Part shown: piece by piece, positions 2,107 through 35,530 of the stretch | How the letters are laid out: each line of letters begins with the position of its first letter | How positions within the stretch are numbered: the stretch's first letter is position 1 | Assembly: GCF_004362975.1 (NCBI RefSeq) | Contig: NZ_SNXO01000025.1 | Coordinates: 1 to 35,627 of the forward strand | Direction: 5' to 3' | Origin: Aminicella lysinilytica | Lineage (GTDB): Bacteria; Bacillota; Clostridia; Peptostreptococcales; Anaerovoracaceae | Length of the DNA stretch: 35,627 nt | The notes under the pieces: generated by a model | Told to the model about the DNA's origin: nothing | Databases searched by the model: none | What the model saw: only the letters and a program-made list of their open reading frames with translations | Translations under genes and position numbers: made by a program

Positions 2107-2460
2107 CGCACGTATTGGTTCAATATCAAGGATGATAGTGCGTTTTTTTATTTATTGTAAACCAAATTCGCACTTATTGCCTGGATCAAAGATGTCAAGG
2201 TGCGTGGTGCTGGATGTAGAATCCATATATGTAATTATATGGCAGTAAATCGGAATGTTGACGCACTTCCTGGTCTCCGAAATAGCCTATAAGTGCGCAG
2301 ACAATCGTTAGAATTCCAATATGCGCACCTCCATGCTCTGAGAATCACAAATAAGTGCGGAAATGAAATTCAGATTCACTAATCCGCACCTTCGTTCCTT
2401 AAAGCAGGGCAATACGTGCGCGCTCGCACGTTTACCCCAGATAATCAGATAAGAGGTGCG
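2107..2460 (+). repeat. Phased GTGCG array, copy 1
   Basis: Twelve GTGCG pentamers alternate in orientation. CGCAC starts at 2107, 2169, 2262, 2324, 2385 and 2425; GTGCG starts at 2138, 2200, 2293, 2355, 2416 and 2456. They form six units CGCAC-N26-GTGCG with linkers of 26, 57, 26, 25 and 4 bases. Most motifs therefore sit 31 bp apart, about three helical turns. The same spacing is kept in the other two copies. The block TTTATTGTAAACC at 2151-2163 is also conserved. No reading frame is preserved, so this is a non-coding element. Its function is unknown. Confidence 0.85.
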
Positions 2461-2651: not shown

Positions 2652-4151
2652 CTATTTCACCAGTGAGAACAGGTCGTTAAGCGACTCGCTCATGGTCGGG
2701 TGAGTGAACACCTGGTTTTTCAGGACCTGGTAATCTGCGTCCAGATCCATGGCCAGTTTCACGATATTTATCATCTCATAGGACTCCTCACAGAGAAGCT
2801 CGGCGCCGAGGATCTTATCAGTGTTTTTGTCGACTATGGCTTTCAGCAATCCCTGCGGACGGCGCAAAACCCGAGCTTTAGGAACCGCGGCCGTCGGCAT
2901 CTTCACGATGCGAACATCCAGGCCGGCTTTTGCTGCTTCCTGCTCATTGATGCCGACTCTACTGAAAGGCGTTGCCATGAAAACGCTGTAAGGCACATTG
3001 CGGCGCGCTTTCAAATCATAGGCTCCCCCTGCCAGGTCGGCGGAAACTACGCGGTAGTCGTCCAGGGAAACGTATGTGAACTGGAGACCGCCGGTAACAT
3101 CTCCCATTGCCCAGATCCCCGGCTGGCTTGTGGCATTGTGGTCATCCACGATTATAGCGCCGCGGTCAGTGACTTTGACGCCGGCCGCATCCAGACCCAG
3201 ATCCGCAGTATTCGGCTTGCGGCCTGTGGCTACCAGGATCGCATCCGATGGCAACTCCACGAGCTCATCATTCAAAAGATACTTCACGGTGCCGTCAGCT
3301 CCCAGCTCCTGAGTTTTTGCTTCGAATACGAATGTCACGCCCTGAGCTTCAAGCAGGGCCTTGATCTCGGCGGCAACATCCTCGTCTTCGCGGGGGATGA
3401 AGCGGGCGCCGTCCTGAAGGAGGGTCACCTTGGAGCCGAAGGAGGAATACATAGAAGCGAATTCCAGACCTATGTAACCGCCGCCGACAATAGTCAGGCG
3501 TTTAGGCAGTTCGTCCAGATCCATGAGAGTCTCGCTGAAAAAGACTTTCGGGTTTCCGGCTAGGCCTGCGATATTTGGAATCACAGGGGTTCCGCCGGCA
3601 TTGATGAAAATTTTCTCAGCCGAAATGACGAGGCTATCGGAGCCGGAAGCGCCGGATGCAGAATCTCCGGCAGTCTTGTCTACGCGAACCTCTGTCGGAC
3701 TTAGAAAAGTCCCTTTGCCGTCGATGACATCCACGTTGGGCAGGTCCGCCAACTTGTGGTAGTTTTTGCCACGGAGCATGGAAGTCACGCGGCGCTTTTC
3801 TTCGATAGCGGCTTTATAGTCTGCGGCCCTGACAGCCCAGGCTGCGTCGGCATCGGCAGACGAGCCGGCAGTGCCGGAGGCTGAGGCATCGGCAGCCGAA
3901 CCGGCAGCGCCAGAGGCTGCGGCTGCGTCGGCTTTTGCGGCTTAGGCTGAGGCTGCGTCGGCTTTTGCGGCTGAGGCTGCGGCCGAGTGGACCAGAGACT
4001 TAGACGGAATGCAGCCCACATTAATGCAGGTGCCGCCATACATTTTGTTCGACTGCTCTACCAAGGCGACACTTTCGCCCTGAGAAGCCAGCTGGCCAGC
4101 AAGAGTTTTGCCGCCTTTACCAAAACCGATTATTATTGCATCGTAATTCAT
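2652..4151 (-). pseudogene. RclA-like FAD-dependent disulfide oxidoreductase, interrupted by one in-frame stop
   Basis: The N terminus (AIIIGFGKGGKTLAGQLASQ, then GGTCINVGCIPSK with redox cysteines 42 and 47) and the remainder (NAD motif VGGGYIGLEFASMY, FAD motif IWAMGDVTGG, C-terminal THPTMSESLNDLF) match the RclA/hypothiocyanous-acid-reductase branch of the pyridine nucleotide-disulfide oxidoreductases. Both parts are in one frame, separated only by TAA at 3942-3944 (codon 70). The stop lies in an alanine-rich insert of about 50 residues between the CxxxxC helix and DYKAAIEEKRR, where relatives are short. A 30-base unit is repeated on both sides of the stop; TCA to TAA would explain it. The gene starts in an ATGA overlap with the Rrf2 gene and has GGAGGTAAGAA before it. 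It may be a true null allele, an assembly error or read-through; downstream GTG/ATG codons near 3779-3788 would give a protein without the active site. Confidence 0.85.
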
Positions 4152-7502: not shown

Positions 7503-8486
7503 TTACGCTTCTCCCATGACGTCCCGCGCCATATCTCCGATCTCCTCCACGGCCTGGTCAGGAGAAAGTATCCTGATGCCGCCGGAGAACCGGAACACCC
7601 ACGCGTAGAAAGTCGGGCTCAGGGCCACATCCGCCCACACATAGAAAGTCGACCGTGTGGCCACTTCCGTCTTCACCCTCTCGCCGAACTTGTCGATGAC
7701 ATACTTCATGAGTTCGTTCCTGCATTCCAGCTTCACCCGAACCCCCTGGCCGTCATACATCTCGAAAATCTGCCTGGAATAATCGTCCAGCCTGAATCCC
7801 TTTGGCTTTTTCTCCGCCGCCTCATCGCTGATGGCCACGCTGTCCATGCGGTCCACCCGGAAGGCAGATACATTATCGTGCTTATCCGACCAGCCGATGA
7901 CATAATAGAAATCATCGTTCCAGTACAAGGCATAGGGGCTCAGCTCGTAGACTTCGCCGTCGTTGCGCAGGATCTTTTTCTTCTCCGGGCTGTACTCGAT
8001 GTATTTGAAAGTGATCTTCCGTTTGCGATTGATGGCGTCGTTGACGTCGTTGACTATGTAGAAAATGTTCTCGTTGACAGGCTTCACCCGGCCTGCCGTG
8101 TTCATGTGTCGCTCCAGCTTTTTCTTCTGGCTGTCGCTGGCCAGGCCGCTGATTTTGCGCGCCAGCTCCCTGCTTTTCTTCTTGGTTATGAACCGCGACG
8201 AAAGCACGGCGTCGATGAGCAGCTGCAACTCCGGGATCTCGAATTCCCGCTGGCCCCAGTAGTATTTGTTGGGCTTGCTGGGGATTGTGATGATGTCGAT
8301 GCCGCAGTCCACCAGCAGGTCCAGGTCGCTCTTCAGAGTCTTGCGGTTGGTGTTGACCCCCTGGCTCTCCAGGTAGCGCAGGAGCTGATGGGTGTCCTGA
8401 GGGTGGTCCTGATCCGACTTCTCGCGCAAAAAATCCATTACCAGGATCAGGCGTTTTTTCATTGTGTTGGGTTTGGTGTTATCCAT
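7503..8486 (-). CDS. HTH/WYL-domain transcriptional regulator
   Basis: 327 residues. An N-terminal winged helix (TMKKRLILVMDFLREKSD, then NTNRKTLKSDLDLLVDCG) precedes a WYL domain around residues 145-235 with LSPYALYWNDDFYYVIGWSD and VSAFRVDRMDSV, the conserved pattern that binds small ligands or nucleic acid. A WCX-like extension follows. WYL regulators often control defence or DNA-damage genes. AGGGAG lies 8 bases before ATG 8486. Its stop is 36 bases upstream of the Fic gene start on the same strand, and a defence-like block lies nearby; regulation of either is a guess. Confidence 0.9.
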   Translation of the reverse strand: MDNTKPNTMKKRLILVMDFLREKSDQDHPQDTHQLLRYLESQGVNTNRKTLKSDLDLLVDCGIDIITIPSKPNKYYWGQREFEIPELQLLIDAVLSSRFITKKKSRELARKISGLASDSQKKKLERHMNTAGRVKPVNENIFYIVNDVNDAINRKRKITFKYIEYSPEKKKILRNDGEVYELSPYALYWNDDFYYVIGWSDKHDNVSAFRVDRMDSVAISDEAAEKKPKGFRLDDYSRQIFEMYDGQGVRVKLECRNELMKYVIDKFGERVKTEVATRSTFYVWADVALSPTFYAWVFRFSGGIRILSPDQAVEEIGDMARDVMGEA

Positions 8487-8533
8487 AAGATTTCTCCCTT
8501 GTCTTACTTTCCTTCTTGGTGCTTACTTTCCTG

Positions 8534-8875
8534 TCACTCCCAGGTCTTCCACACGTCCGGCTGGTAGCCGACGGTTGCCTTCTTGCCGTTCCTGACCACC
8601 GGCGTGCGCAAAAGGTGCTGGTTTTCCAGCAGGTTGTCGATCTTGGTGGTGTCGGATATGTACTTGATCAAAGCTAATCCGTCCTGGTCTTTGGTCTTGG
8701 GGTTCAGCATTTCGTCGAGGCCACCTACGGCCTGCATGACGCTTGTGAGTTCGCCCTTGCTCATGCCCTTTTCCTTCAGGTCAATGAACTGGAATCTGAT
8801 CCCCCGTTCCTTGAAATACCGCTGCGCCTTCTTAGTATCAAAGCACTTCTTAATGCCGAATATCTGTATGTTCAT
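8534..8875 (-). CDS. ArsC/Spx-family protein
   Basis: 113 residues, the normal length of this thioredoxin-fold family. Near the N terminus IFGIKKCFDTKKAQRYF has one redox cysteine without a CXXC partner, and LLRTPVVRNG near residue 88-97 holds the conserved arginine. Members act as arsenate reductases or as Spx/MgsR-like RNA polymerase partners; the single cysteine does not settle which. A RBS AGGAGCAAACC precedes ATG 8875. It follows the YdbC-like gene by 9 bases, so the two are probably cotranscribed. Confidence 0.88.
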   Translation of the reverse strand: MNIQIFGIKKCFDTKKAQRYFKERGIRFQFIDLKEKGMSKGELTSVMQAVGGLDEMLNPKTKDQDGLALIKYISDTTKIDNLLENQHLLRTPVVRNGKKATVGYQPDVWKTWE

Positions 8876-8884
8876 GGTTTGCTC

Positions 8885-9100
8885 CTATTGATTGCTGAGA
8901 AGCTCGCACAAAGTTTCAGCTTCTTCTTTGCTCAACGTGATGCCCTTACCCATCTTCTCATGGTCAGGCGCCCAGTCACGTATATCGTATTTAGGCGCTG
9001 CGCCGTTCCATGAGATTAAGTTCAGTTCCCTAGTCCAGCCCTTAGCACGCTCAGAGATAACTCCGAGAGATTTCACTATTTCATATTCAAAATTTGCCAT
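8885..9100 (-). CDS. PC4/YdbC-like ssDNA-binding domain protein
   Basis: 71 residues. The pattern FEYEIVKSLGVISE, GWTRELNLISWNGAAPKYDI and RDWAPDHEKMGKGITLSKEE is that of the YdbC group of PC4-like proteins, small dimeric beta-sheet single-strand DNA/RNA binders of the Bacillota. ATG at 9100 has GGAGG 7 bases upstream; the upstream ATG at 9118 is less good. It sits next to the ArsC-like gene and downstream of the helicase pair. Confidence 0.85.
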   Translation of the reverse strand: MANFEYEIVKSLGVISERAKGWTRELNLISWNGAAPKYDIRDWAPDHEKMGKGITLSKEEAETLCELLSNQ

Positions 9101-9165
9101 TTGTTTTCCTCCGTTCATTTAGTAACTTCAGTTTGCTATGCCTTTATATAAACTCTTATTTTAAA

Positions 9166-10878
9166 TTAATCTACTTTTGGAATTGAATTTAAGGTATTTG
9201 CCAATTCTTTTTTAGGATGTTTTATTCTTCCGACTTTACTAAAATTGTGTTGTAATATGTTTGCACACTCATCATCATTAAGCGAAGATATAATCTCTAA
9301 ATTTAAGCGTGCACGAGATGCTCCTACATAAAATAGCAAAATATTTTTTTCATAAAACGCTTCAGCATCAACGTCAACAAGTATTACAGAGTCAGCCTCT
9401 AATCCTTTGAACTTCCTACATGTAAAAAAGCGCGTATCCTCTTTGTATGTATCATTCTTAGTAAAATCAGACAACCAACTTGTTCCTTCAGTTTTGCATG
9501 TTAGCAATACTGTATCAACATACCCTGCTGCCTTAGAGTTTGCTATAGCTCTATCAACACTTGCTATAATATCATGCTTACTACTACAAAATCCCAATGT
9601 GGGCAATGTTCCTCTAATACAGTTTTCCATCATATTAGGTCTTCTCTCGCTTATAGGTCGCAATGATGTTTTAGCTATATTGATTGTATTCCTACAATTC
9701 CGGTATAATGTTAATTTGCAATCTGCATTTCTAATATATCCTGGTATTTTGTCAGCTTGGACCAGTTGCAAATTGTCATAAAAAATGTAAAATGTACCAT
9801 TTACTATTTCGTTTACTACCATAGACTCTAACAAATCAATAATGCTTGCTTCTTCAATATTGTCAAATCCAAAATCTTGTCCTTCATCAATAATAATATG
9901 TTTATAACCAAATGTACCATCAATGTACTTTTGTAGCAAACACTCTCTCAGCATTTCATAATCAGGAAAACTATTGTTACATAATTTACATGCAAAACCA
10001 TCAATAGTGTAATAATCTATGTATTCGTTTTCGAAATGTGCAACTAGATATTCTCTAAGTTTGTAATTGTAGCATAAAAAGAGAACTCTTTCCTGAAAGT
10101 TCGCATGACGCCTAGCTTTTTCTAATGCGACCATGGTTTTTCCAGTTCCAGCTGCACCATTAATAACAGCACTCCTTTGTTCTGACAAAAAATCCAGCAC
10201 TTTAATTTGTTCCTCTAAAAGTTGATGGAATACTATTTTTTTGATGTCAACTTCAGTTGTATTTATTGGGAAAATATCAAAATGCGGGCATAGTATTTCT
10301 TCAATCATGATCTTCGCATCAGTACTCGACAGTTTTGTGACTACGTCCCCTCCAGCAATTGGTATGTTCAAAGAAAAAATCCTGTCCACAAAAGGAAGTG
10401 GGTTTTCAAGTGCTTCTTTCGTTAAAACTTGCTCCTTAGGACAATCGGAAGGCAAATTTACCTCATCAACACTGCTTCTTGATACTGACGGAAACCATAC
10501 CGCATGGACGAATTTACATCTAGTGATAATGCTTCCCCTATTTTTTTCATTAATATAATCAATCAGCCTATACTTGAAATGGTCTGCTTGCCTAAAAGGT
10601 CCCCCTTGTTTCATCGGAACTCCATTGCCATAGTACCATTTACCATTTTCGTATTTAACGTGCCCTGCTTTAGCCTCTAAGCACAGAACACCTTTATACT
10701 GATTAAAAATGATAAAATCCCCTTCATTTTCACTATATGTATTGCCCTTAACAGTTGCAATCTTCATTGAATGTAAAACATAATAGTCTTTAGGCAACTT
10801 TTTAAGTGCACTAAACATCAATCCCTCCATGCTGGCCTCACTGTGTGTATGCGGAACATCTGGTATCATAATAGCCAT
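9166..10878 (-). CDS. NERD-domain UvrD-like helicase
   Basis: 570 residues. Residues 10-110 form a NERD nuclease-like domain: GDFIIF with Asp54 and LCLEAKAG with Glu68-x-Lys70, the residues expected of a PD-(D/E)XK site. A superfamily I helicase follows: Q motif near 224, Walker A GAAGTGKT at 241-248, Walker B IIIDEGQDF at 328-336, motif LYRNCRNT, then FKGLEADSVILVD and YVGASRARLNL. The start overlaps the upstream helicase stop by one base (TAATG), so both are translated together. The DNA is visibly AT-rich, unlike the 3' half of the window, suggesting transfer. A nuclease-helicase joined to a RecQ-like partner fits phage or plasmid defence, but I cannot name a described system. Confidence 0.88.
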   Translation of the reverse strand: MAIMIPDVPHTHSEASMEGLMFSALKKLPKDYYVLHSMKIATVKGNTYSENEGDFIIFNQYKGVLCLEAKAGHVKYENGKWYYGNGVPMKQGGPFRQADHFKYRLIDYINEKNRGSIITRCKFVHAVWFPSVSRSSVDEVNLPSDCPKEQVLTKEALENPLPFVDRIFSLNIPIAGGDVVTKLSSTDAKIMIEEILCPHFDIFPINTTEVDIKKIVFHQLLEEQIKVLDFLSEQRSAVINGAAGTGKTMVALEKARRHANFQERVLFLCYNYKLREYLVAHFENEYIDYYTIDGFACKLCNNSFPDYEMLRECLLQKYIDGTFGYKHIIIDEGQDFGFDNIEEASIIDLLESMVVNEIVNGTFYIFYDNLQLVQADKIPGYIRNADCKLTLYRNCRNTINIAKTSLRPISERRPNMMENCIRGTLPTLGFCSSKHDIIASVDRAIANSKAAGYVDTVLLTCKTEGTSWLSDFTKNDTYKEDTRFFTCRKFKGLEADSVILVDVDAEAFYEKNILLFYVGASRARLNLEIISSLNDDECANILQHNFSKVGRIKHPKKELANTLNSIPKVD

Positions 10879-13800
10879 TATTCTATCACCTCTATTGCGT
10901 TTAGTATTCTGTCAACTGTCAAATTCGGATCAGCTCCAAAGAAACATGTCCAGCCTGGTATATTGTAATATGGAATTTCTTTATCCTCATCTGCCATAAA
11001 ATACATTACTCTTGATTTTACCCAAATCAAATCACAATTGCAATCAAGTGACTGCCCATCTATCGATACATCTCCACTAACAGGTCTTTCATGATTGTTA
11101 AATTCGTCAGAGCGTTTAACCAGTTCTGTTGAAAGTTTGATTTCATTGTCATTAGATGTGAAGGATGCTACTATACTATCCCATATAGTATGATAGTCGC
11201 TCCCATCATATTCAACGCCATTTGTTATATCTATTTCCACATCATTCCTTTTCACTTTGTTGGTTTCGAGTTTACTATCCACAATGGTATCATGTCCTAA
11301 AAAATAATTTTCTATAATGTCCCAACGTTCATCATTCGAGTACTTATTTATCATAAAGCTATTCATAATGCGAACTGCTCTTTTATGCCTGTTTTCTATG
11401 TCCGATAAAATCCCATTTTTATAATTATAATTGTCGCTACGCATCTTCATCAGCTTTCTAGGGTCATTTATACGCACAAATATCTGCGGATTCTTACCTC
11501 CCTCATACTCATAAGTTGCAAGTCCAAACAATTGCAAAATTGACGCCATTAATTGCTGATACGACACTTGCGTGCCTGGCTTTGGCACCGTTAAATATGT
11601 GACATAGTGAATTCCATCTTTCATATTAGGTTTTGCTTGCCAAAAATACTTTTTTAAATTGTTTGAGATATAGGAATACCTTTGCGTCTTTATTGAATAC
11701 ATCGATTCTATTATGTTTATGTTCTTGCCAGCTTCACCCCTTTTCTTTTCAATAAACTTCCATGGTTCCGATGGATTGTTATATGTTTCTACATGGTCAA
11801 AGCAGAACAATTCTAAAAGTAGTTTAAGATATTCTTGTTTTATTTTCGGATCAAATCGCTTATTGAATAAGGAACTAAAATCCTTCATTGTAAATCTTCT
11901 TCCACCAAACAGCCTCTTAATATCATTAAAAGTATCTTGAATTGCTCTGCAAACTTCCTTAAACCTTAATTCTATTTTATCATATCCTGGATTGTAATTA
12001 ATTGTAAGTTTCATGTTTGGTACAATTTTATGTTTGCCATAATCAAACAATTTACCATTAAAAAAATTATACTTAAACTGTGCAAAGGTTTCATTTGAAA
12101 AGTCATTTTCCCAAATTTCTCCTAAGTCTATTTCAAAGACATTGCCAGTTTTCGTTATTATACAATCACCTGCTTTTCCATACGAATACTGTTGATCTGG
12201 CATGCAGTCTTGCATCATCTCACAATACCGTCCGTATCGCTCTAAAAATTGTTCTTCAATCTCATTAGGTACAATAATATACTGTTTTGAAAACAGATTT
12301 TTTGATCTAACTGTAATAACTTTAAAATGATACTTGTTCAGCAAATCTGTGCTTAGAAGCATCAATCCACTTTTCAGTTTAAGGTCTACACTTTCCGTGT
12401 CAAACAAATAGCTAAATGTATCTGGAGAAACAAGCAGATTGCGGTGCTTCTTTTCCTCATATATAGAACATAGTTTATTTATTATTGCTTTGATCTGATA
12501 ATGCCTAAGCCCCGAGAGCCCCCATAGTGTTCTTGCATAATTCATATCTGATCCAAGGTAGTCAGTTATAGCATAGCCTACTTTCAGCTTTCTTGCAGCT
12601 CTCCCAATTTCTTGTACATAATCAGCTAGCGCACCCGTAGGCGCATAGTGGTATATATTCTCAACATCGCTGATATTTATTCCCATACCAAAAGCTTTAG
12701 TTGCTAACATTACTGTAGCATCTGAATCTTTAAAACTATCATAGCTTTTATCTCTTTCCGCACTTTCCATGTCACTGCTATAATACCGTGTTACCTTAGT
12801 TGCAATATCCGGATACTTATCAGTAATATTGGTCAGAACATCCTCTATTTGAGATTTGTATGGAAAGTATACAATTGTTTTTTGATGTTTTTTTACATAT
12901 TTACATACGGCCGCAGTAGTAAGCTGCAATTTTTCCTCTTTATCTTTGTTTTTTGTATTGACTTGACGTATATCAAAAATAATATTATCGCGACGAACAT
13001 ACCCTATGTACATATGCCCTGAGTAGCATGTTAAGTGTAGGCTTCCTTGAAGATCATTTATTACGTCGTCCCTTCCTCCATAAACAGCGGTTGCAGTCAA
13101 GCATAACATTGGGAAAGTACTAGTTTGCTGGGATGACCTAGATGTACCCCTTCTTATTCTTTCTATATGATCTCCTAAAAACCAATAATCAACTCTGAAA
13201 TCCCTACCCCACGAAGTGACTAAATGTGCCTCGTCTATGACCATAAGACCTATTTTACGTTCCCCAATTAAAGTCGAAATATCTGATGACAATAGTAATT
13301 CTGGAGATAAATAAACAATAGAATACTCACCATCTTTTATGCCATCTAACCTCCGCATCCTCTCTTTATATGAAATGGTCGAATTAATATATGTTGCATA
13401 TTCTATTCCTCGCTCTTGCAACTCTAACACTTGATCTTTCATTAATGCAATAAGCGGTGAAAGTACTATTGTAAGCGGTTTATCCGTCTCTCTCTCATGA
13501 AGATATATGGCTGGAATTTGAAAGAAAACTGATTTACCTGCCCCTGTAGGAGCTGTAACTATAATGTCAGAATACTGAGTATCATTTTTTTTTGCATCAA
13601 GGCATTGCTTTATTATATCTGCAATAATTATTCCCTGAGAAATATCAACCGTTTCATTGCTCACATCAGGATGAGTATAAAACTTATTATTTCTAAACTC
13701 TGCATCTTTACCCCAATATTTTTTTAGCAAATCCAAATGACACTCTTCTGTTTCTTCCCTTTTCTGCATCTCTGTCTCAGAAATCCCAAACACTATATTG

Positions 13801-14525
13801 TAAAAAGATCCCAATACATTCATTACGCATATTTCGTTATTTAAGTCAGTGGTCGCATCTCCTAGTATTCTATATTTTCCTTCTTCTAGCCTGCCATCCT
13901 GCAGAAGATACTTTGTATGTACTAAACTAGAAATAGTTATATCAATGCAACACTCATTACGCACATTATAAGCATCTATAATGTGCGTATCATAAAAATC
14001 GAGTTCTTCAATTCTTAAATTAACATCAACTTCATAGTGCTTATTAACATACGAAAGTAAGAGAATATCACCATCGACTTTGTAGTCCGAATAGAACTGT
14101 GAAATGTAACTATCTGGTTGTTTTATTGTTTCATTATTGAAGCATTCTTCAACATCCTTTTGAGGGCTTAAGCATGGTATTGGATAATAATAATGAAAAA
14201 GGTTATTATCCACAACAACTATTTTCCCTGGAAATGCTGAGAAATCAGACAATATATCAGCCAAAGCAATTAGTTCTTCATAAAATCCCCATACTTGTCC
14301 ATGAGCAGAAATCAAAGGGCTTAAATAATCAGTTCCTTTGATTTTGCGTATATCAGGGTATTGACCGTCCCAATTATTGGTAAAGTGTTTTATCCCTGTA
14401 TGTTCAATTGATTCATAAAAATCTAATGGGAATCCTTTAAAGAAAATTAGAACGTCCTCATCAGCATTTAAAATATCTGTTCTTTCTAAAAATTGATCTA
14501 TACTATTACTAAAAGCCGTGTTCAT
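10878..14525 (-). CDS. Large RecQ-like DEAD/DEAH helicase (1215 aa)
   Basis: About 320 N-terminal residues have no recognisable domain. A superfamily II helicase core follows: Walker A TAPTGAGKS near 324-332, IVLSPLIALMKDQV, DEAH near 431-434, LCLTATAV, then the second RecA domain with ATKAFGMGINISDVENIYHY and VQEIGRAARK, as in RecQ helicases. The last 500 residues are unrecognised and take the place of RecQ-Ct and HRDC domains. ATG 14525 is chosen because AGGAG lies 9 bases before it; ATG 14534 directly abuts that site. The coding DNA is about 30% GC by eye in sampled lines. It is operonic with the NERD-UvrD gene. The size, odd N terminus and partner suggest a defence helicase; this is inference. 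Confidence 0.85.
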   Translation of the reverse strand: MNTAFSNSIDQFLERTDILNADEDVLIFFKGFPLDFYESIEHTGIKHFTNNWDGQYPDIRKIKGTDYLSPLISAHGQVWGFYEELIALADILSDFSAFPGKIVVVDNNLFHYYYPIPCLSPQKDVEECFNNETIKQPDSYISQFYSDYKVDGDILLLSYVNKHYEVDVNLRIEELDFYDTHIIDAYNVRNECCIDITISSLVHTKYLLQDGRLEEGKYRILGDATTDLNNEICVMNVLGSFYNIVFGISETEMQKREETEECHLDLLKKYWGKDAEFRNNKFYTHPDVSNETVDISQGIIIADIIKQCLDAKKNDTQYSDIIVTAPTGAGKSVFFQIPAIYLHERETDKPLTIVLSPLIALMKDQVLELQERGIEYATYINSTISYKERMRRLDGIKDGEYSIVYLSPELLLSSDISTLIGERKIGLMVIDEAHLVTSWGRDFRVDYWFLGDHIERIRRGTSRSSQQTSTFPMLCLTATAVYGGRDDVINDLQGSLHLTCYSGHMYIGYVRRDNIIFDIRQVNTKNKDKEEKLQLTTAAVCKYVKKHQKTIVYFPYKSQIEDVLTNITDKYPDIATKVTRYYSSDMESAERDKSYDSFKDSDATVMLATKAFGMGINISDVENIYHYAPTGALADYVQEIGRAARKLKVGYAITDYLGSDMNYARTLWGLSGLRHYQIKAIINKLCSIYEEKKHRNLLVSPDTFSYLFDTESVDLKLKSGLMLLSTDLLNKYHFKVITVRSKNLFSKQYIIVPNEIEEQFLERYGRYCEMMQDCMPDQQYSYGKAGDCIITKTGNVFEIDLGEIWENDFSNETFAQFKYNFFNGKLFDYGKHKIVPNMKLTINYNPGYDKIELRFKEVCRAIQDTFNDIKRLFGGRRFTMKDFSSLFNKRFDPKIKQEYLKLLLELFCFDHVETYNNPSEPWKFIEKKRGEAGKNINIIESMYSIKTQRYSYISNNLKKYFWQAKPNMKDGIHYVTYLTVPKPGTQVSYQQLMASILQLFGLATYEYEGGKNPQIFVRINDPRKLMKMRSDNYNYKNGILSDIENRHKRAVRIMNSFMINKYSNDERWDIIENYFLGHDTIVDSKLETNKVKRNDVEIDITNGVEYDGSDYHTIWDSIVASFTSNDNEIKLSTELVKRSDEFNNHERPVSGDVSIDGQSLDCNCDLIWVKSRVMYFMADEDKEIPYYNIPGWTCFFGADPNLTVDRILNAIEVIE

Positions 14526-14585
14526 CTTCCACATCTCCTAACTAAAGGTAATCGTAAACCGTACCCTACCTTCTTTTAGATAATA

Positions 14586-14614
14586 ACTATACTCATATTT
14601 GTACCCCGTGATAA
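14586..14614 (-). promoter_or_regulatory. Candidate promoter of the two-helicase operon
   Basis: TTATCA (14609-14614), a 17-base spacer and TATAGT (14586-14591) on the minus strand, about 60 bases before ATG 14525. Reasonable match, but the region is AT-rich. Confidence 0.4.
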
Positions 14615-14654
14615 AGTAACATTTGTATAGTTTCTGTATCATTAACTTTATCCC

Positions 14655-15503
14655 CTACAAGTGTTGATTCAATCGCAATGGCTCTTCGAGACCATTTTTA
14701 TACACATATTTTAATCCTATTCTATTAAATATTGGATCCGCATCGTGTATTATTCTGTGATGGTTGGGGCAAACTATCATTTGATTGCTTGCATCGTTGT
14801 TTAAACTGTTCACGTAATAATCTATGTGATGAGCTTCAGCAACATGTGAGTCATATTCTTCTCCAATCAACTGCCCACAAATCTGACACCTGTATCCATA
14901 TAGCAATTTCAGATTATCGCCTATCTTGCGATTCAGTTTCCTGACTTTATATACTCCTTGAACTTCATTTATCGTTGATGTTGTGTCCTCCATATCTATA
15001 TCGTAATTTGCCTCATATAAATACTCTGATTTACCTGCAACATCTTGTTTTACTGCCTCGATATCTGTAACTCCTATAGTATCAAATTCATAAGTATCAT
15101 CATACTCCGTTGTATAGATTGCTAGGTATTCTTTTACATCTTCCGGTAGCTTCGGAATCGATCTAGAGCCCTCAGGGCGTATCTTCCTCGCATTTGAGAA
15201 GAAGTTATAACTCGATGCGAATATCTGCTGTAATTCACGAGCCAAATCTCCATTTCTGGGATATCGAATTTGTATTACATCAGTCTTACGATTAAACTTC
15301 TTATCAAAGTTTACATTTACAACCTTTGCGTCATAGGACTTCCCATTCAGAAATATCTTTATTGGTTTCTGCTCACCTTTAGTTAAGTAACGGTTCATTA
15401 TTCTTCCGAAAACGACCTGATTTTCAACAGGCAAGGTTATTCCTTCTGTCAAAAGTGACCAATTGATTTCTTGTTTATAAACATATTCATTGCAACCTTC
15501 CAT
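14655..15503 (-). CDS. HNH endonuclease with N-terminal unknown domain
   Basis: 282 residues. The C-terminal part is a zinc-type HNH module: YRCQICGQ, then EAHHIDY and NQMIVCPNHHRIIHD, giving the metal histidines and two CxxC-like pairs. The first 130 residues (INWSLLTEGITLPVENQVVF..., KIFLNGKSYDAKVVNV) look like a beta-barrel DNA-recognition domain of the EcoRII-N/B3 type, a tentative reading. GTG 15539 would add 12 residues and overlap the NERD gene; ATG 15503 is preferred though its RBS is weak. As last gene of the HNH-methyltransferase-NERD operon it probably acts on DNA, possibly in restriction. Confidence 0.82.
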   Translation of the reverse strand: MEGCNEYVYKQEINWSLLTEGITLPVENQVVFGRIMNRYLTKGEQKPIKIFLNGKSYDAKVVNVNFDKKFNRKTDVIQIRYPRNGDLARELQQIFASSYNFFSNARKIRPEGSRSIPKLPEDVKEYLAIYTTEYDDTYEFDTIGVTDIEAVKQDVAGKSEYLYEANYDIDMEDTTSTINEVQGVYKVRKLNRKIGDNLKLLYGYRCQICGQLIGEEYDSHVAEAHHIDYYVNSLNNDASNQMIVCPNHHRIIHDADPIFNRIGLKYVYKNGLEEPLRLNQHL

Positions 15504-15514
15504 ATCTGTACTTC

Positions 15515-16273
15515 TTATGCATCCTTGGTAAATCTGCACTTAGGATAGTTGCTGCATCCTATGAATTCTCCATATTTGCCGCTGCGCGTCACAAGTTTGC
15601 CGCCGCACTTTGGGCATATATTCTGCTCAATTTTGGATTCTTCTTCAGCCTTGGCAACCTTGATGTCTTGATTATGCTTTTCCATTACTTCTTTTGATTC
15701 GATATCGCCTGCGTTAATTGCCTCGCAAGCGGTAGCCACCTGTTCTGTTGTCAGCAATTTCTCCTGATGCCCTTTGATTGCTGTAGTCAGCTTATTGAAA
15801 TACACTACTCTACCTTCAGCATCGTCCACCCTTAATTTGGCATCCAAGGAAAATGCTATGAGTGAAATGAATGTTGATTCAGGCAATCCCGTTAATGTCT
15901 GCAAAGCCTTGATATGGCCATAATTTTGACGCAGCGGATTGTAGAAGTTGTTAGTAGTGTTGCCTAACTTTTGTTTCCATTTATCGGCATCTGGCGATTC
16001 GATTATTACTCCCTTGTAGTTTTTCGTCTCAATAACGAATATGCCGAATTCCGACACAACTACATGGTCTATCTGCGTTACACCCTTGTTGCTTTTCACT
16101 ACCACATCATTGATTACTCTATATGCATCGGGGAGTTTCTTCAGAAGCGAGCTAACAGCCGCTTCCCCCTTCTTGCCCTTATACTTTGCTTTCCTAGATT
16201 TGTTGAAAATCATATCAAGCAAGAATGAGAAAGCCAGCATTCCCACTAGCATAACCTTTATCTTAATGTCCAT
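15515..16273 (-). CDS. Membrane-anchored NERD nuclease-like protein with topoisomerase-type zinc finger
   Basis: 252 residues: a membrane span at about 5-24 (IKVMLVGMLAFSFLLDMIF), a NERD domain (KKGEAAVSSLL, then TQIDHVVV with Asp69 and FVIETKN with Glu82-x-Lys84), a charged helical linker, and a C4 zinc finger at the end (CPKCGGKLV...EFIGCSNYPKC) as in topoisomerase I tails. NERD domains are related to PD-(D/E)XK nucleases. RBS GAGGTATCT precedes ATG 16273. It lies 7 bases after the methyltransferase stop and overlaps or nearly abuts the HNH gene, so it belongs to the operon. Its substrate is unknown. Confidence 0.9.
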   Translation of the reverse strand: MDIKIKVMLVGMLAFSFLLDMIFNKSRKAKYKGKKGEAAVSSLLKKLPDAYRVINDVVVKSNKGVTQIDHVVVSEFGIFVIETKNYKGVIIESPDADKWKQKLGNTTNNFYNPLRQNYGHIKALQTLTGLPESTFISLIAFSLDAKLRVDDAEGRVVYFNKLTTAIKGHQEKLLTTEQVATACEAINAGDIESKEVMEKHNQDIKVAKAEEESKIEQNICPKCGGKLVTRSGKYGEFIGCSNYPKCRFTKDA

Positions 16274-16280
16274 AGATACC

Positions 16281-16898
16281 TCATTTCAATTTCGCCGCAA
16301 TTATATTCACCCACTGCTCGCTGTCGCGACCATCACGCACGTCTCCAGTCAAGAATGTTTCCTGAAGTCGCAGGTTTGTATCAGCAAATAACTCTGCTAC
16401 AGCATCCTTACTATAGTCGCTATAGTACCGTCCTCCACGGAATTCTTCAGAGGAACCGTTCTTAAAACAAGTATAGAAGACTCCCCCGGGCGTCAAGGCG
16501 CGCTCAATGCGGCAGATCATGCCGTGCATGTCTTCCTTTGCTACATGGAGCAAGGACGCGCAGGCCCACACACCATCGAAAGCCTCTTCATAGTCAAGTT
16601 CTTCGAATGTTTGATTTATAACCTCAATGCCAGTATAGTCGCTCGCCAGCCGGCATAACTCCGCAGAGCCATCCACAGCCGTGACCCGGTAACCTTTTGT
16701 TAGAAAATATTTGGTATCCCTGCCGGATCCACAACCTAGATCCAAAATGCTTGGAACATCTTCCTTCGGAAACGATGTCTTAACGCACTCCAGAAAGTGA
16801 TCGCAGAGAGACGTCATATCGCCGCCAACAGTGGAATCGAAGAAGTCCTGAGCCGTCTCGTTATATGTATCCAGCGTTTTCTTCTCGTAATCTTTCAT
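16281..16898 (-). CDS. Class I SAM-dependent methyltransferase
   Basis: 205 residues with SAM motif I ILDLGCGSGRDT at about 51-62, motif II acid in VTAVDGS, and FDGVWACASLLHV. No DPPY or PC motif is present, so it is not an obvious DNA methylase; the pattern is closer to small-molecule methyltransferases of the TehB/UbiE type. Its start overlaps the HNH gene stop by four bases (ATGA). Its place between two HNH endonuclease genes is suggestive of modification but the sequence does not support DNA methylation directly. Confidence 0.88.
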   Translation of the reverse strand: MKDYEKKTLDTYNETAQDFFDSTVGGDMTSLCDHFLECVKTSFPKEDVPSILDLGCGSGRDTKYFLTKGYRVTAVDGSAELCRLASDYTGIEVINQTFEELDYEEAFDGVWACASLLHVAKEDMHGMICRIERALTPGGVFYTCFKNGSSEEFRGGRYYSDYSKDAVAELFADTNLRLQETFLTGDVRDGRDSEQWVNIIAAKLK

Positions 16899-17995
16899 CT
16901 AAACTCCCATTCTCCGAAGCCCATGTTCCGCGCGGATTCATAGACCGGCATCATTATCTCTGACAGTTGTCCCGAGAATTCGGTTCTGTCGAGCCCCGGC
17001 CTGTACAACCGCTGGCGGACCTCTTCACTGTTCAGATTCTCACGAGCGCAACGCTCAAAAAGTCCTTTGATATTTTTGTTCTCCTGGGTGAGTTTGTATG
17101 CGTCGTATTCCGCTCGACAAAGCTTCTCAAAGTACGCATCCCACCGCGGCAGGTTGTTGCTTTTGCTGCTGTTGATGCTGCGGCTAGTCGGTATCAAATT
17201 CCACAGTTCATCGCTTGCCACATAAGACCATGGCACAAAGTGATCTATGGTGATCTCTCTGCTGCCCAGAACCTCGCCATCATAGATGTCAATGATCGGA
17301 TGGATCTCCGATATCCCGCGCCAATACTTGATAACATTATTCAGCTTGCGCACCTGCGGCGGATATAGTTTGCTGGCTATGCCCGGTACCGTTGGATTCC
17401 TTCCCTGCAAGTAATTGATTAGATTGAAATCCGTCCAACCAAGCAAAATACCATAGTTCTCACTAATATAGTCGACCCATTCATCATGGATCCGAATGGT
17501 GCTCTCAAGACCTCGAGCCCTGTAAATAGTGTAGATCATCCCGGTTTTCCTGTTGATGTAGTCAACAGTCGCATCGGGGCTCTGCTTCCAGAAAGCCGTG
17601 TTGGCCTCCGGCATAAAAGGAGCCTGAAGTCTGTACGGCACATTAAGCGTAAGGGTTTTCTTCATGCGCAAAATCTCTGCGTCATTGCATTCAGCGAGAT
17701 AGTCTTTGATTTTCTCAGGCTTTTCTGACGGTGTCAAACCGCTTATTTCAGCCAAGCGCAAAACGATCTTTTCCAGCGTATCTGCCGGTCCAAGATTCAG
17801 ATGAAATTCGCTGACCATATACCAAGCGTCGATTATCATCTGATCGATCAGATCTCCATATGACATCTCTGCCCTTCCTTCGCCGACATTCTTCAGGATT
17901 GCCTTGAACCAAAAGAGCTTGTAACTCTCGCTCTTATTGTCGAAAATCCTAGCTAGGGTCCTAGTATTCAGTTGTGAAGAAGATGGTAGATTCAT
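16895..17995 (-). CDS. HNH endonuclease domain protein (366 aa)
   Basis: The HNH core lies near residues 248-285: ITIDHFVPWSYVASDELWNL, then PTSRSINSSKSNNLP, the DHfvPws...N..N..K pattern of HNH-fold restriction-like nucleases. The N-terminal 240 residues are helical with no named domain; similar long proteins are found beside restriction and repair genes. AAGGAGCAGT precedes ATG 17995, and a TTGTCA-17-TACAAT promoter lies just upstream, so it heads the operon HNH, methyltransferase, NERD, HNH. Confidence 0.88.
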   Translation of the reverse strand: MNLPSSSQLNTRTLARIFDNKSESYKLFWFKAILKNVGEGRAEMSYGDLIDQMIIDAWYMVSEFHLNLGPADTLEKIVLRLAEISGLTPSEKPEKIKDYLAECNDAEILRMKKTLTLNVPYRLQAPFMPEANTAFWKQSPDATVDYINRKTGMIYTIYRARGLESTIRIHDEWVDYISENYGILLGWTDFNLINYLQGRNPTVPGIASKLYPPQVRKLNNVIKYWRGISEIHPIIDIYDGEVLGSREITIDHFVPWSYVASDELWNLIPTSRSINSSKSNNLPRWDAYFEKLCRAEYDAYKLTQENKNIKGLFERCARENLNSEEVRQRLYRPGLDRTEFSGQLSEIMMPVYESARNMGFGEWEFR

Positions 17996-23083: not shown

Positions 23084-23254
23084 TTGGTTTCTGTCGGGCA
23101 ATTGGCTGATATCTACCCCAGTCCTGAGGCAAGAGCTCATATGGACTTGGTGCCCGCAAATATCTGGAACATATCATTGGTTTCTGTCGGGCAATTGGCT
23201 GATATATACCCCAGTCCTGAGGCAAGAGCTCATATGGACTTGGTGCCCGCAAAT
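23084..23254. repeat. 78-bp near-identical direct repeat with nested inverted repeats
   Basis: Copies at 23084-23161 and 23177-23254 differ at one base and are separated by 15 bases. Within each, CGGGCA/TGCCCG (outer) and AGTCC/GGACT (inner) can form a two-stem hairpin on either strand, with conserved unpaired CCAAG and GGGGTA segments on the minus strand. It looks like a duplicated structured leader or repeat element. Confidence 0.7.
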
Positions 23255-24654: not shown

Positions 24655-25155
24655 ACGGTGATCTGGCGGCCAGGCGCCGGGGGCAGTTCCGGAACTGGCC
24701 CCCGCAGACATTTCCGGAGCTGGCCGCCGCAGACATTTCCGGAGCTGGCCGCCGCAGACATTTCCGGAGCTGGCCGCCGCCCGCAGACATGTTTTCCAAC
24801 AAAACCCGGTTTCAGGCCTCCAAAAAAAGAACTTTCCACAGAAAGGTCATAAATCTAATCCATTATATGGTATATTTACCATATAATTGTTGTTCATGAG
24901 GGCAAATCATCATTTCTATAAGCTCATTTCCTCATCGAATCAACTAACTCCGCAACATTTGCTCTTGAAAACCTCCAAACCGTGCGCGAGTTCTGCCTGG
25001 AGAGCCGAAATATGGCGTTTTGTCGGAAAACATGTCTGGCCAGCAAATCCGCCAGCCCAGCAAAACATCTCCGGCCAGCAAATCCGCCGGCCCAGCAAAA
25101 CACCTCCGGCCAGCAAATCCGCCATCCCAGCAAATCCGCCGGCCCAGCAACCTGT
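24655..25155. repeat. Intergenic region with two tandem-repeat blocks
   Basis: No gene is supported. Block one, 24682-24790, has 25-bp units starting at 24703, 24728 and 24753 (core CATTTCCGGAGCTGGCCGC) plus partial ends. Block two, 25038-25150, has 35-bp units starting at 25038, 25073 and 25108 (core GGCCAGCAAATCCGCC). Long frames across these blocks are translated repeats. Confidence 0.75.
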
Positions 25156-30347: not shown

Positions 30348-30701
30348 CGCACGTATCAGGCAAATATCAAAGCCCATAGTGCGGATTTTTCTTTATTGTA
30401 AACCAAAATCGCACTTATTGACTCAATCAAAGGGGTCGAGGTGCGCGTCAATAGTTATATAACCCATACTTGGTATTTTATGGTAGTATATCGGATCTTA
30501 ATCGCACTATTCCTCCTCTGAAACGGCCTATCCGTGCGTGACCAATCGTTGAAATTCCAATACGCGCACCTCCATGCCCTGAGGGCCACTGATAAGTGCG
30601 TAAATCAATTTGGAAACCCGCTAAGTGCACCTTTGTTCCTCGATACAGGGCTAGACGTGCGCGCTCGCACTTATACGACCAAATGGCAACAGGAAGGTGC
30701 G
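30348..30701 (+). repeat. Phased GTGCG array, copy 2
   Basis: CGCAC starts at 30348, 30410, 30503, 30565, 30626 (as TGCAC) and 30666; GTGCG starts at 30379, 30441, 30534, 30596, 30657 and 30697. Every unit keeps N26, and the linkers are 26, 57, 26, 25 and 4, exactly as in the other two copies. The block TTTATTGTAAACC is at 30392-30404. The intervening sequences are only partly similar to copies 1 and 3. The array lies 219 bases before the nuclease-like gene and reads in the same direction. Confidence 0.85.
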
Positions 30702-30919: not shown

Positions 30920-31768
30920 ATGGGATTTGCTGATGCACTGCACTTCGAACTACTCAGGCAGAAGAAAATGACGACCACTTACCCGAAAATACTGGACGAC
31001 GCGCCGGATGGGCACTTGCTCATACGATCAAGACGGAAAGGGAAAACATATTACTGGGTCCACCACAATCAGAACGGCACTTCCAGCCAATTGAACATTA
31101 CCGGCCAACGAGATCTTATTGCAAAATTGGTCAACAAAATGATAAAGAGAAAGATTCTGATCAGGGCTAAGAATAATGTTAAATATATGGAACTGCTGCA
31201 AAAGGAATTTTCTGACGTGGATCCGAGCGAGGTTTTGAAGTCGTGCCCAAAGAAATACCAGGACGCGGCGCTTATGCTCAGGCAACAAAACGTCGAGCGG
31301 CGCATGTTGGAGCCCTACAGTAAGGCGCCCTTTGATCCGAGGTACCATATTCACGAAACCGACTGCGGAATCATGGTTCGCTCCAAATCAGAGCAAATCA
31401 CGTGCAACACATTTACAGCTTACGGAATTCCTTTCCATTATGAGGAAGAGTTCGTCCATAAAGAAGGTGGCCGTAAGATTTACACCGATTTCCGTATTTT
31501 TCTGCCCGCAGATGTCTTCTATATCTGGGAACATCTTGGATTGTTATCAGACCTCAAATACTGTGAGCGCAACGTTTGGAAACTGCATGTTTTCCAAAAA
31601 AGCGGACTCGTGCTTGGCGCAGATCTGATTCTGACTATGGATGATTCCGACGGGACTATCAGCAGTTCAATCCTCAACAAAATAATTGAAACTCAGATTC
31701 TCCCGGCATTGCAGGGTGTAAGAGTCAGCAAAGAACTTATTATGGCTGCCAATGGCGTCCGCAGATAA
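30920..31768 (+). CDS. PD-(D/E)XK nuclease-like protein flanked by GTGCG arrays
   Basis: 282 residues. The N-terminal half has a basic segment (LLIRSRRKGKTYYWVHHNQN), then a helical part. From about 150: IMVRSKSEQITCNTFTAYGI with Glu158, PFHYEEEFVH, then YTDFRIFLP with Asp180 and YIWEHLGLL with Glu194 as the acidic position. This SKSE...yE...D-F...WEH-G pattern is that of orphan PD-(D/E)XK proteins of Bacillota; the usual lysine after Glu is replaced (EHL). GGAGGACTT lies before ATG 30920. Array copy 2 lies upstream, and a GC-rich palindrome and array copy 3 follow in the same orientation. Linkage suggests the protein may act at those repeats; this is inference. Confidence 0.78.
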   Translation: MGFADALHFELLRQKKMTTTYPKILDDAPDGHLLIRSRRKGKTYYWVHHNQNGTSSQLNITGQRDLIAKLVNKMIKRKILIRAKNNVKYMELLQKEFSDVDPSEVLKSCPKKYQDAALMLRQQNVERRMLEPYSKAPFDPRYHIHETDCGIMVRSKSEQITCNTFTAYGIPFHYEEEFVHKEGGRKIYTDFRIFLPADVFYIWEHLGLLSDLKYCERNVWKLHVFQKSGLVLGADLILTMDDSDGTISSSILNKIIETQILPALQGVRVSKELIMAANGVRR

Positions 31769-31787: not shown

Positions 31788-31851
31788 CCATCCCGGATCC
31801 GCGGGCGAGCCCACCCAAAAGGCTCAGGCCCGCAGGCGCCGGGTTGGGATG
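31788..31851 (+). repeat. GC-rich palindrome, copy B
   Basis: Differs from copy A (1928-1991) at two or three bases, in the same orientation relative to the following array. The arms CATCCCGG...GGGATG and GCGGGCGAGCC...GGCTCAGGCCCGC form a long imperfect stem. It starts 19 bases after the nuclease-like gene stop, so it may also act as a transcript end, although no T tract follows. Confidence 0.8.
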
Positions 31852-31968: not shown

Positions 31969-32322
31969 CGCACGTATTGGTCAAATATTTATGATGATAG
32001 TGCGAATTATTTTTTATTGTAAACCAAAATCGCACTTATTGAACCATTCAAAGAGCTCGAGGTGCGCGTTGCTGGTTATAACTACCTTGATTGGGATTAT
32101 ATGGAATCGTATCAGACAGAAAACGCACTTCCAGGTCTCTAAAGCAGCCTATACGTGCGCGGCAAATCATTGGAATTCCAATATGCGCACCTCCATCCTC
32201 TGAGAATCACTGATAAGTGCGTAAATCAATTTGAGAATCTCTAGAACGCACCTCCATCCCTAAATACAGGCCTATACGTGCGCGAGCGCACTTATGCTAC
32301 CAAATGACAACAAGAAGGTGCG
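31969..32322 (+). repeat. Phased GTGCG array, copy 3
   Basis: CGCAC starts at 31969, 32031, 32124, 32186, 32247 and 32287; GTGCG starts at 32000, 32062, 32155, 32217, 32278 and 32318. The 26-base inner spacing and the linkers 26, 57, 26, 25 and 4 are again identical. The block TTTATTGTAAACC is at 32013-32025. Base identity at the position before GTGCG is kept site by site between copies (for example A-G-GTGCG at the last site, A-C-GTGCG at the tenth). Confidence 0.85.
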
Positions 32323-33954: not shown

Positions 33955-35530
33955 GATAGTGTAAAATAGTTGTTGGTAATATAGATAATAGAATAGAGAT
34001 CAGTTTCTGTGTTAAAATAGAATTCTAAACAAACAAACAACAGAAAGGAATGATCTCTATGCCTAACAGTATATACCAAATCACAGAAAATTTCATTAAG
34101 AAAGTTCAGGAAGTCACATTTAGTGCTGAATTAAGCAGTCTGGATGATCTGACAACGGATCTTCAAAAAGTAAGCAACGAGTTCTGCAAAAAAATGACTG
34201 AAGCGGCTTTGAAGGAACTCAATGAGTCGATAAGAGACGACCGGAAACTGCGTAAGGAAAATGGATTGACGATTCACAGTAAAGACAGGCCAAGGTCATA
34301 TCTGACAGAGATCGGAGAGATCCATTATGCCAGAGATTGTTATCTTGTACATGAAACAGGCAAACATACCTGCATAATGGACCGGCTGATAGGGGTAGAC
34401 GCGTATGACAGAGTGGGCAGAAATATTGGAGCCAGGCTGGTAAGTGAAGCTACAGAAAATTCATATGCGCAGAGCAGTCGGATAGTGACCGGTGGAACTG
34501 TGAGCCGTCAGACAGTGCGTAACAAGATACTGAAGATGGGGCCACTTGAGTATCCGGCGAGGGGCGAGCTGAAGCAGGTAAAGGAACTCCATATTTATGC
34601 TGATGAAGACCATGCCCATCTGCAGAAGCCAAAGAAGGCAAAAGGTAAAAAGCTCCAGATAAACCCTCTTGCGGTAGTGACGGAGGGGACTAAAGCTGTT
34701 GCAAGTGGACGCAATAAAACGATATGCCCGATGCGTTTCGTGGATCATGAGTTCAACAGCAAACGACTATGGAATAGTGTTGAGGGATACCTGCGGTCGG
34801 CCTATGATATGGACTACCTGGAAAAGATATACCTGCATGCTGATGGTGGAAGCTGGATAAAAAGCGGATTGTCAGAGATGAAACAGAAAGTAGAAGTATT
34901 GGATGGATTCCATCTTGAAAAGTATATTATGAAATTGGTAAGGCTATTCCCAAATTCAAACACACACTATCGCATAACCAATGCGATAAAAGCAAATGAC
35001 AAAGGAAAAGCAGATAAAATATTTCAGTCGCTGCTTGATAAATCTGATGGAGATACCCGGAAAGAAGAAATAGTGAAAAAAGTGACGAAATACATATTAG
35101 GCCACTGGGATGCCGCGGTACTCCGTAAGACAGAGGACATCCCCGGAAGCTGCACAGAGGGGCAGATAAGCCACGTGTTATCATCTAGATTTAGCAGAGA
35201 GCCACTTGGATGGAGCAAGGAAGGCCTCGGATCACTTAGCAGCCAGAGAGTATATATTATGAATGGTGGAAATATCAAGGGTAGTGATTTTGGAGCTACA
35301 AGTGATAATACATATGCAGACCTGATGGAAATGTGTCTGTCCGGCAAGATGAACGAGAAACTGGACTGGAGTATAATCGATGCGAAGATACAAAGCATAT
35401 TCGATACGGGGAGCGGAACTCAGCAGGTCCTAAAGAGCCTTGGACAGTTACAGAATGTCACGCTATCGTAGAAAATACCAAAGCCACAGAAGCTGTCAAC
35501 CTAAATTACCAACAACAACTTGACACTATC
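33955..35530 (+). mobile_element. ISLre2-family insertion sequence
   Basis: 1576 bp. Ends are imperfect terminal inverted repeats: GATAGTGTAAAATAGTTGTT at the left, and at the right the reverse complement begins GATAGTGTCAAGTTGTTGTT; about 28 bases match with 4 differences. The element carries one transposase gene. Flanking bases (AAGGCAAC left, AAAGGGGG right) are not a duplication, probably because a second IS lies at the right end. It interrupts the metallopeptidase gene. Confidence 0.88.
34059..35471 (+). CDS. ISLre2-family transposase
   Basis: 470 residues, the full size of ISLre2 (UPF0236-like) transposases. Signature parts: IGEIHYARDCYLVHETGKHT, LHIYADEDHAHLQ with a catalytic Asp, IYLHADGGSWIKSG with the second Asp, and DGFHLEKY. 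The protein catalyses movement of the surrounding element. AAAGGA lies about 10 bases before ATG 34059; the ATG at 34050 touches that site and is less likely. The frame is intact, so the element may be active. Confidence 0.93.
   Translation: MPNSIYQITENFIKKVQEVTFSAELSSLDDLTTDLQKVSNEFCKKMTEAALKELNESIRDDRKLRKENGLTIHSKDRPRSYLTEIGEIHYARDCYLVHETGKHTCIMDRLIGVDAYDRVGRNIGARLVSEATENSYAQSSRIVTGGTVSRQTVRNKILKMGPLEYPARGELKQVKELHIYADEDHAHLQKPKKAKGKKLQINPLAVVTEGTKAVASGRNKTICPMRFVDHEFNSKRLWNSVEGYLRSAYDMDYLEKIYLHADGGSWIKSGLSEMKQKVEVLDGFHLEKYIMKLVRLFPNSNTHYRITNAIKANDKGKADKIFQSLLDKSDGDTRKEEIVKKVTKYILGHWDAAVLRKTEDIPGSCTEGQISHVLSSRFSREPLGWSKEGLGSLSSQRVYIMNGGNIKGSDFGATSDNTYADLMEMCLSGKMNEKLDWSIIDAKIQSIFDTGSGTQQVLKSLGQLQNVTLS

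Follow-up and report, generated by a model that had tools for sequence, protein, structure and literature searches.

A dispersed 354-bp intergenic repeat of mirrored GCAC units in Aminicella lysinilytica is probably a docking array for a putative DNA-binding protein

Our results suggest that a 354-bp intergenic repeat of Aminicella lysinilytica is probably a docking array for a putative DNA-binding protein. The element consists of six CGCAC-N26-GTGCG units, and the window (the whole stretch of DNA analysed, 35,627 nucleotides) carries three copies of it. We establish its anatomy, directionality, mirror symmetry and copy number, a contrast in conservation between its motifs and the rest of its sequence, an insertion at one locus that is specific to this lineage, and the recurrence of the layout, with a different word, in a second genus. 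The explanation that we tentatively place first is a non-autonomous, dispersed, inserted intergenic repeat, whose working part would be an array of candidate protein-binding DNA sites still in use.

Anatomy and copy number of the array

The six units of the first copy, together with their linkers, were located exactly as an earlier note on this DNA had described them. The main features of the window are listed below.

2107 to 2460, forward strand: array copy 1, six CGCAC-N26-GTGCG units, 354 bp
2107-2142, 2169-2204, 2262-2297, 2324-2359, 2385-2420, 2425-2460: the six units of copy 1, with linkers of 26, 57, 26, 25 and 4 bp
2107 to 2204, forward strand: copy 1, units 1 and 2, with the KTAT mark at their left end
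2152 to 2165, forward strand: TTATTGTAAACCAA in the first linker, invariant in 23/23 copies
2262 to 2420, reverse strand: units 3, 4 and 5 of copy 1, KTAT-marked end at right, facing units 1 and 2
2308 to 2321, no strand: TTGGAATTCCAA-like palindrome, conserved, in the linker that joins units 3 and 4
2425 to 2460, forward strand: unit 6 of copy 1, KTAT-type end at left, four bases past unit 5
30348 to 30701, forward strand: array copy 2, layout as copy 1, five exact units, one motif TGCAC for CGCAC
31969 to 32322, forward strand: array copy 3, layout as copy 1, six exact units

The window contains 17 exact CGCAC-N26-GTGCG units, while the mean of 100 shuffles is 0.00. The scan of the genome and its relatives that the earlier note had proposed gave 156 exact units in the whole genome (91 contigs, 2,286,758 bases) and none in the reversed control. 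BLAST with one copy as the query returned 38 matches genome-wide at E values up to 0.01, and a sequence-only model built from 23 copies identified 23 full copies and 9 partial pieces. The match list of this model has 74 entries, comprising the 23 full copies by construction, the 9 pieces and 42 weaker matches, the last mostly on the opposite strand because of the mirror symmetry of the array. The arrays examined lie between ORFs of annotated size, and the ORFs that overlap them are short. Unit 6 is also found alone elsewhere.

The spacing is kept in the further genomic copies, as the earlier note had expected. Among the 138 units of the 23 full copies, the gap between the two motifs is 26 bp in 136 and 27 bp in 2; in unit 6 of one copy (L005) a second GTGCG lies two bases further on, so that its gap may instead be 28. 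The linker between units 1 and 2 is 26 bp and that between units 3 and 4 is 26-27 bp in the 23 aligned copies, while the linker between units 2 and 3 is 57 bp in 21 full copies and 58 bp in 2. The proposed rigid 31-bp phase holds for motifs 1-8, whose starts are 31 bp apart except for one 62-bp step between motifs 4 and 5, but it does not extend to the rest of the array: the linker between units 4 and 5 is 25 bp in 16 copies and 26 bp in 7, which often leaves unit 5 one base off phase, and the linker between units 5 and 6 is 3, 4 or 5 bp in the full copies, which places unit 6 out of phase. In one copy (L006), unit 4 resembles unit 5 by eye, as if exchanged or converted.

The same word occupies all twelve motif positions, and the units are directional. 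The [GT]TAT (KTAT) that follows CGCAC marks units 1, 2 and 6 on the left and units 3, 4 and 5 on the right; CGCAC[GT]TAT stands at the assigned end in 128/138 units of the 23 copies and at the opposite end in 0/138. Thus, units 1 and 2 face units 3 to 5, and unit 6 is an add-on. The same genome also carries a diverged, mirror-symmetric 3+3 array (L087, units at 3324, 3386, 3447, 3530, 3592 and 3654), in which three units have CGCACGGTT at the left and three have its reverse at the right.

Several other features lie around the arrays. A strong GC-rich hairpin repeat (GCGGGC..GAGCC..GGCTC..GCCCGC) occurs near them in the window (about 1937-1980, 2555-2598 and 31797-31840) and also flanks other copies. 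Some arrays are preceded by tandem repeats of about 22-23 bp and followed by ones of 13 bp (for example at 3888-4004 and 4355-4420 of L063), whose sequence differs between copies. For a 282-aa ORF between two arrays (window 30920-31768), Pfam and NCBIfam gave no match; the C-terminal end of the PADLOC candidate family PDC-S68 matches its second half (E 8e-23). Elsewhere, the window contains a defence-island-like cluster at 7503-17995 (WYL regulator, NERD/UvrD-type helicase, RecQ-like helicase with a strong match to PADLOC C3a193, NERD nuclease and HNH protein), an ISLre2-family transposase at 34050-35471 (UPF0236; NCBIfam NF033529 just above cut-off), tandem repeats of 25 bp at 24675-24774 and, at 23084-23254, a 78-nt stretch that recurs 93 bp away with 99% identity.

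Conservation of the motifs, distribution and insertion

The motifs are conserved far better than the sequence between them. Over all pairs of copies, the difference amounts to 32.5% of positions outside the motifs and 2.1% within them, and in ten disjoint closest pairs 11/600 motif positions differ compared with 550/2939 elsewhere (p = 2.7e-34). These figures are for the 23 full copies, with L023 and the other partial pieces left out. Because the search that found the copies used the whole element as BLAST query, the contrast is not a product of a motif search. A total of 261 of the 276 motifs are intact, and in 11 of the 15 deviating ones the change affects the outer base alone, C to T or G to A; the outer base is also the one that varies in the arrays of the second genus. 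The base before GTGCG, which had been thought to be kept site by site, is indeed fixed in unit 2 (G in 23/23) and nearly so in unit 1 (A in 21/23), whereas it varies between A and C in units 3-5 and between G and A in unit 6.

Such a contrast would arise either if resident copies were under selection or if only copies with working sites had spread. Most copies are 13-40% apart outside the motifs and yet keep the motifs, and since they are so far from identical we lean towards selection on the resident copies.

The element is rare among relatives. A strict four-motif pattern is found in the own genome alone in samples of 41 and 296 genomes, and the model search matches 1 of 17 genus members, again the own genome. 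The 16 other genus members lack the element, so that any host function would not be a general one. Among 349 genomes of the family, 3 match a looser pattern with GCAC/GTGC cores; in a class-level sample of 391 genomes, without G221 and G261, there is 1 match. These two genomes, from another genus, carry four-unit 2+2 mirrored arrays with YGCACCAT cores and unit starts at about 0, 62, 240 and 302. The geometry is common to both genera and the word differs. In G221 there are 49 GCACC-N24-GGTGC units (control 2), which by our own grouping form 12 arrays of at least two units, one single unit and about five chance-like occurrences. Arrays of two species (L113 and L119) are 79% alike over 285 bp, and their flanking ORFs have no match to each other at E 1e-5; the flanks of the arrays in G221 and G261 stop aligning just outside the outermost motif. 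In this second genus 1.4% of motif positions and 49.5% of other positions differ, a comparison biased by the fact that these copies were found by motif and made on 14 of the 17 aligned copies (L113, L168 and L171 dropped; L115 never aligned). One G221 array (L166) has units 1 and 4 (C39:44915 and 45229) as inverted repeats with one mismatch by eye, unlike most copies.

Candidates beyond these genomes were rejected. BLAST with one copy gave no match to plasmid or phage collections. Viral scans gave 0 matches or 22 stretches with only the two units asked for, which we read as chance or coding, and four matches in a genome-contig collection look like chance, three having two units only and one (L059) a third. 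All these collections may omit near relatives of the window's genome. Searches of the open-access literature brought up no description of this element.

Insertion is seen between thiE and thiD. Among 17 genus genomes, thiD was found in 10, and 7 of these, including the own genome, have thiE in the same locus. Between the stop of thiE and the first thiD codon that aligns, the own genome has 999 bases, with an array, tandem repeats and a second lone unit 6, compared with 107, 106, 16 and 105 bases in four relatives; these short gaps indicate that the array arrived there in the lineage of the own genome. In two other relatives the gap measures 696 and 757 bases and includes what looks by eye like another ORF, with no array. 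The borders of the insert are blurred by the extra repeats, and neither exact insertion borders nor target duplications of the array itself were found there or in the listed flanks. The array has mirrored motif ends, with no further repeat at the borders of most copies. Upstream of thiD, several genus members (L180-L184 and others) have a conserved GGGGGCACCAC stretch, which is perhaps a leader RNA; it had no Rfam match in L180 or L183.

The main rival explanation takes the repeat to be a MITE-like transposon alone, with its mirrored unit sets acting as multi-site ends for a transposase or recombinase supplied in trans and with no host role; the motifs would then look conserved because only copies with working ends spread. 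The mirror symmetry, the lineage-specific insertion, the patchy distribution (3/349 family genomes) and the homology that stops at the outermost motif in the second genus all fit such an element, and so do words that differ between families, as pairs of element and protein would. However, no autonomous copy was found near the examined arrays (short contigs masked), nor any target duplication specific to the array, and most copies, 13-40% apart outside the motifs, must have been resident for long and still keep them. We consider this explanation possible but on balance doubtful.

A further explanation would make the array a passenger or internal module of larger inverted-repeat elements that do the moving. 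Elements with inverted TATTGTTCCATCAATGGTACC ends and TTATGCATAA inner repeats have 19 + 16 = 35 ends genome-wide (control 0), and one lies at 1273-1656 of the window. Complete arrays are enclosed by 4 of the 15 end pairs, with two of these elements being 92% alike in their upstream flank (496 bp). Against this, 11 of the 15 pairs lack an array, and among 28 copies examined, some with flanks cut by contig ends, 4 are enclosed, 3 have one TATTGTTCCATCAATGGTACC end, 2 lie beside a non-enclosing pair and 19 have no such end within 2.5 kb, which makes a passenger role improbable. The contents of the TATTGTTCCATCAATGGTACC elements vary, being arrays, no evident gene, or in L090 a 433-aa ORF with only a weak helix-turn-helix match.

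Several partial arrays end at one insertion sequence (IS) with imperfect ends. One copy of it (L175, 370-1757) encodes a transposase above the Pfam Transposase_mut and NCBIfam IS256 cut-offs. What might be taken for two separate IS types are the two ends of one IS, as shared 8-bp duplications pair contig C13 with C34, C58 with C10, and C40 with C39 or C17; removal of the IS and one copy of the duplication restores an element of 354 or 355 bp. All sites lie at element positions 163-197, around its middle (177). Of 17 IS ends, 7 fall in arrays, which make up about 0.48% of the genome (P = 1e-12), or about 4 of 11 when counted by insertion (P = 1.7e-7), odds that are flattering because the IS was first noticed in arrays and masked short contigs may hide more copies. 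The grouping into 11 insertions is our own and omits two IS-end remnants 66 bp downstream of arrays (C46 and C10). There is a precedent for such targeting in REPs, since 5 of 7 copies of ISRm5, also an IS256-family element, lie at REPs according to excerpts of the report (PMC1525189).

DNA sites, RNA stems or a coding gene

Our analysis agrees with the earlier note in favouring DNA sites over RNA stems. The covariation term of RNAalifold contributes -0.44 of -44.26 kcal/mol, with two-sided changes in 2 of 43 pairs. Pairing of the base beside the stem of units 5 and 6 is possible in 15 of 23 copies, against an expectation of 12.2 in the absence of pairing. A coding gene was rejected, since for each of the six frames there is a copy whose longest open stretch is no more than 22-35 aa, and no ORF is shared. 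With no support from covariation and no shared ORF, DNA sites for a protein, with one word at twelve positions, fit best. Neither of the two outcomes that the earlier note had named as counting against its view, a known annotated element or a decayed coding gene, was observed: no ORF is shared, and Rfam has no match at the arrays, the window giving one tRNA only at the gathering threshold, and six loci searched at E 0.1 giving only a T-box away from the array. That T-box leader lies at 574-842 of L166, on the other strand.

In some REP, BOX or ERIC-like elements the repeats work as transcript hairpins, and the units could in principle do likewise, with effects on message stability or termination. 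CGCAC/GTGCG and TGCACCAT/ATGGTGCA are able to form stems, and thiE and thiD, with one array between them, have the same orientation. Folding is also better than in shuffles, with z of about -4 on both strands (12/24 own sequences and 10/17 of the second genus) and, with the motifs fixed, about -2.2 (12/24) and -3 (12/17), equal on both strands. However, such equality is expected anyway from mirror-symmetric DNA, all stems are identical in sequence, covariation lends no support, and the neighbouring base pairs no better than expected. We therefore hold an RNA-level repeat to be unlikely, although the better-than-shuffle folding is not fully explained and leaves some room for an RNA or single-strand role.

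Proposed mechanism and comparison with known systems

We then propose a model for the array as a set of protein sites. Two inverted GCAC cores, 31 bp or about three helical turns apart, are found in each 36-bp unit, one end of which has the KTAT mark. The units form a mirror image, in which two or three of them point inwards and two or three point back. A putative oligomerising protein would cooperatively occupy the cores along a single face of the helix and could thereby fold about 350 bp into one nucleoprotein node with a REP/BIME-like function; the single helix face and the kind of protein are inferences. The repeat would have spread by insertion in this lineage, its resident copies still being constrained to the binding sequence. 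Against this model, an all-against-all comparison of flanking ORFs showed, in our reading, no gene family recurring beside the arrays, only general families such as transporters and short ORFs within the arrays; the lack of exact insertion borders and the absence of the element from the 16 other genus members searched also speak against it. It is tempting to speculate further, though we think it more doubtful than not, that a dedicated protein reads GCAC cores every three turns in mirrored sets and gathers tens of intergenic loci into nodes, each lineage having re-tuned the word (CGCACKTAT, CGCACGGTT, YGCACCAT) with the geometry kept.

The contrast between a fixed geometry with near-invariant cores and spacers that drift freely is sharper than is usual in dispersed repeats of bacteria. 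If the arrays are read by a protein, it would represent a new nucleoid or mobile-DNA system, for which the array is a ready bait. One geometry with different words in two genera offers a natural series for the co-change of protein and site, and the IS insertions at the array middle provide a second handle on the complex.

REP/BIME elements are dispersed intergenic repeats with inverted motifs, some of them bound by proteins, and REPs are short single palindromes of tens of bases. The array is also dispersed and intergenic, has inverted motifs and is an insertion target of an IS, as excerpts of PMC1525189 describe for REPs. It differs in having six 36-bp units in one 354-bp mirrored array with fixed 26-bp spacers, rather than a single short palindrome. 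Like MITEs, the array is non-coding, multi-copy and dispersed (23 full copies and 9 pieces, with no shared ORF). The MITE BrickBuilt of Porphyromonas gingivalis, as presented in parts of PMC4596501, consists of tandem 23-nt units without spacers and has short inverted-repeat ends. Both elements are non-coding, intergenic and multi-copy, with internal repeats and a narrow host range, judging from the same parts of that source (PMC4596501). In contrast to that description, spacers separate the units here, which are directional and mirrored, and terminal inverted repeats beyond the arrays, with a target duplication, are not established.

In spacing alone, the array also resembles the sites of Lrp-type regulators. 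These are described, in the sections of PMC2995911 and PMC10201364 that bear on their sites, as regular sites two or three helical turns apart, measured from centre to centre, on one face, with DNA wrapped around an oligomer; they are control-region sites, about 15-bp semi-palindromes in the case of Ah-BarR. The three-turn spacing (31 bp for motifs 1-8) is a likeness to that account (PMC2995911) and not a membership, since the arrays here are dispersed repeats and no Lrp-type protein is linked to them, in contrast to the regulators in the same sections (PMC2995911, PMC10201364). As the array is not a single palindrome and MITE ends and duplications are not established for it, we file it under neither REP nor MITE, and place it among the dispersed intergenic repeats as a new variant with both REP/BIME-like and MITE-like features.
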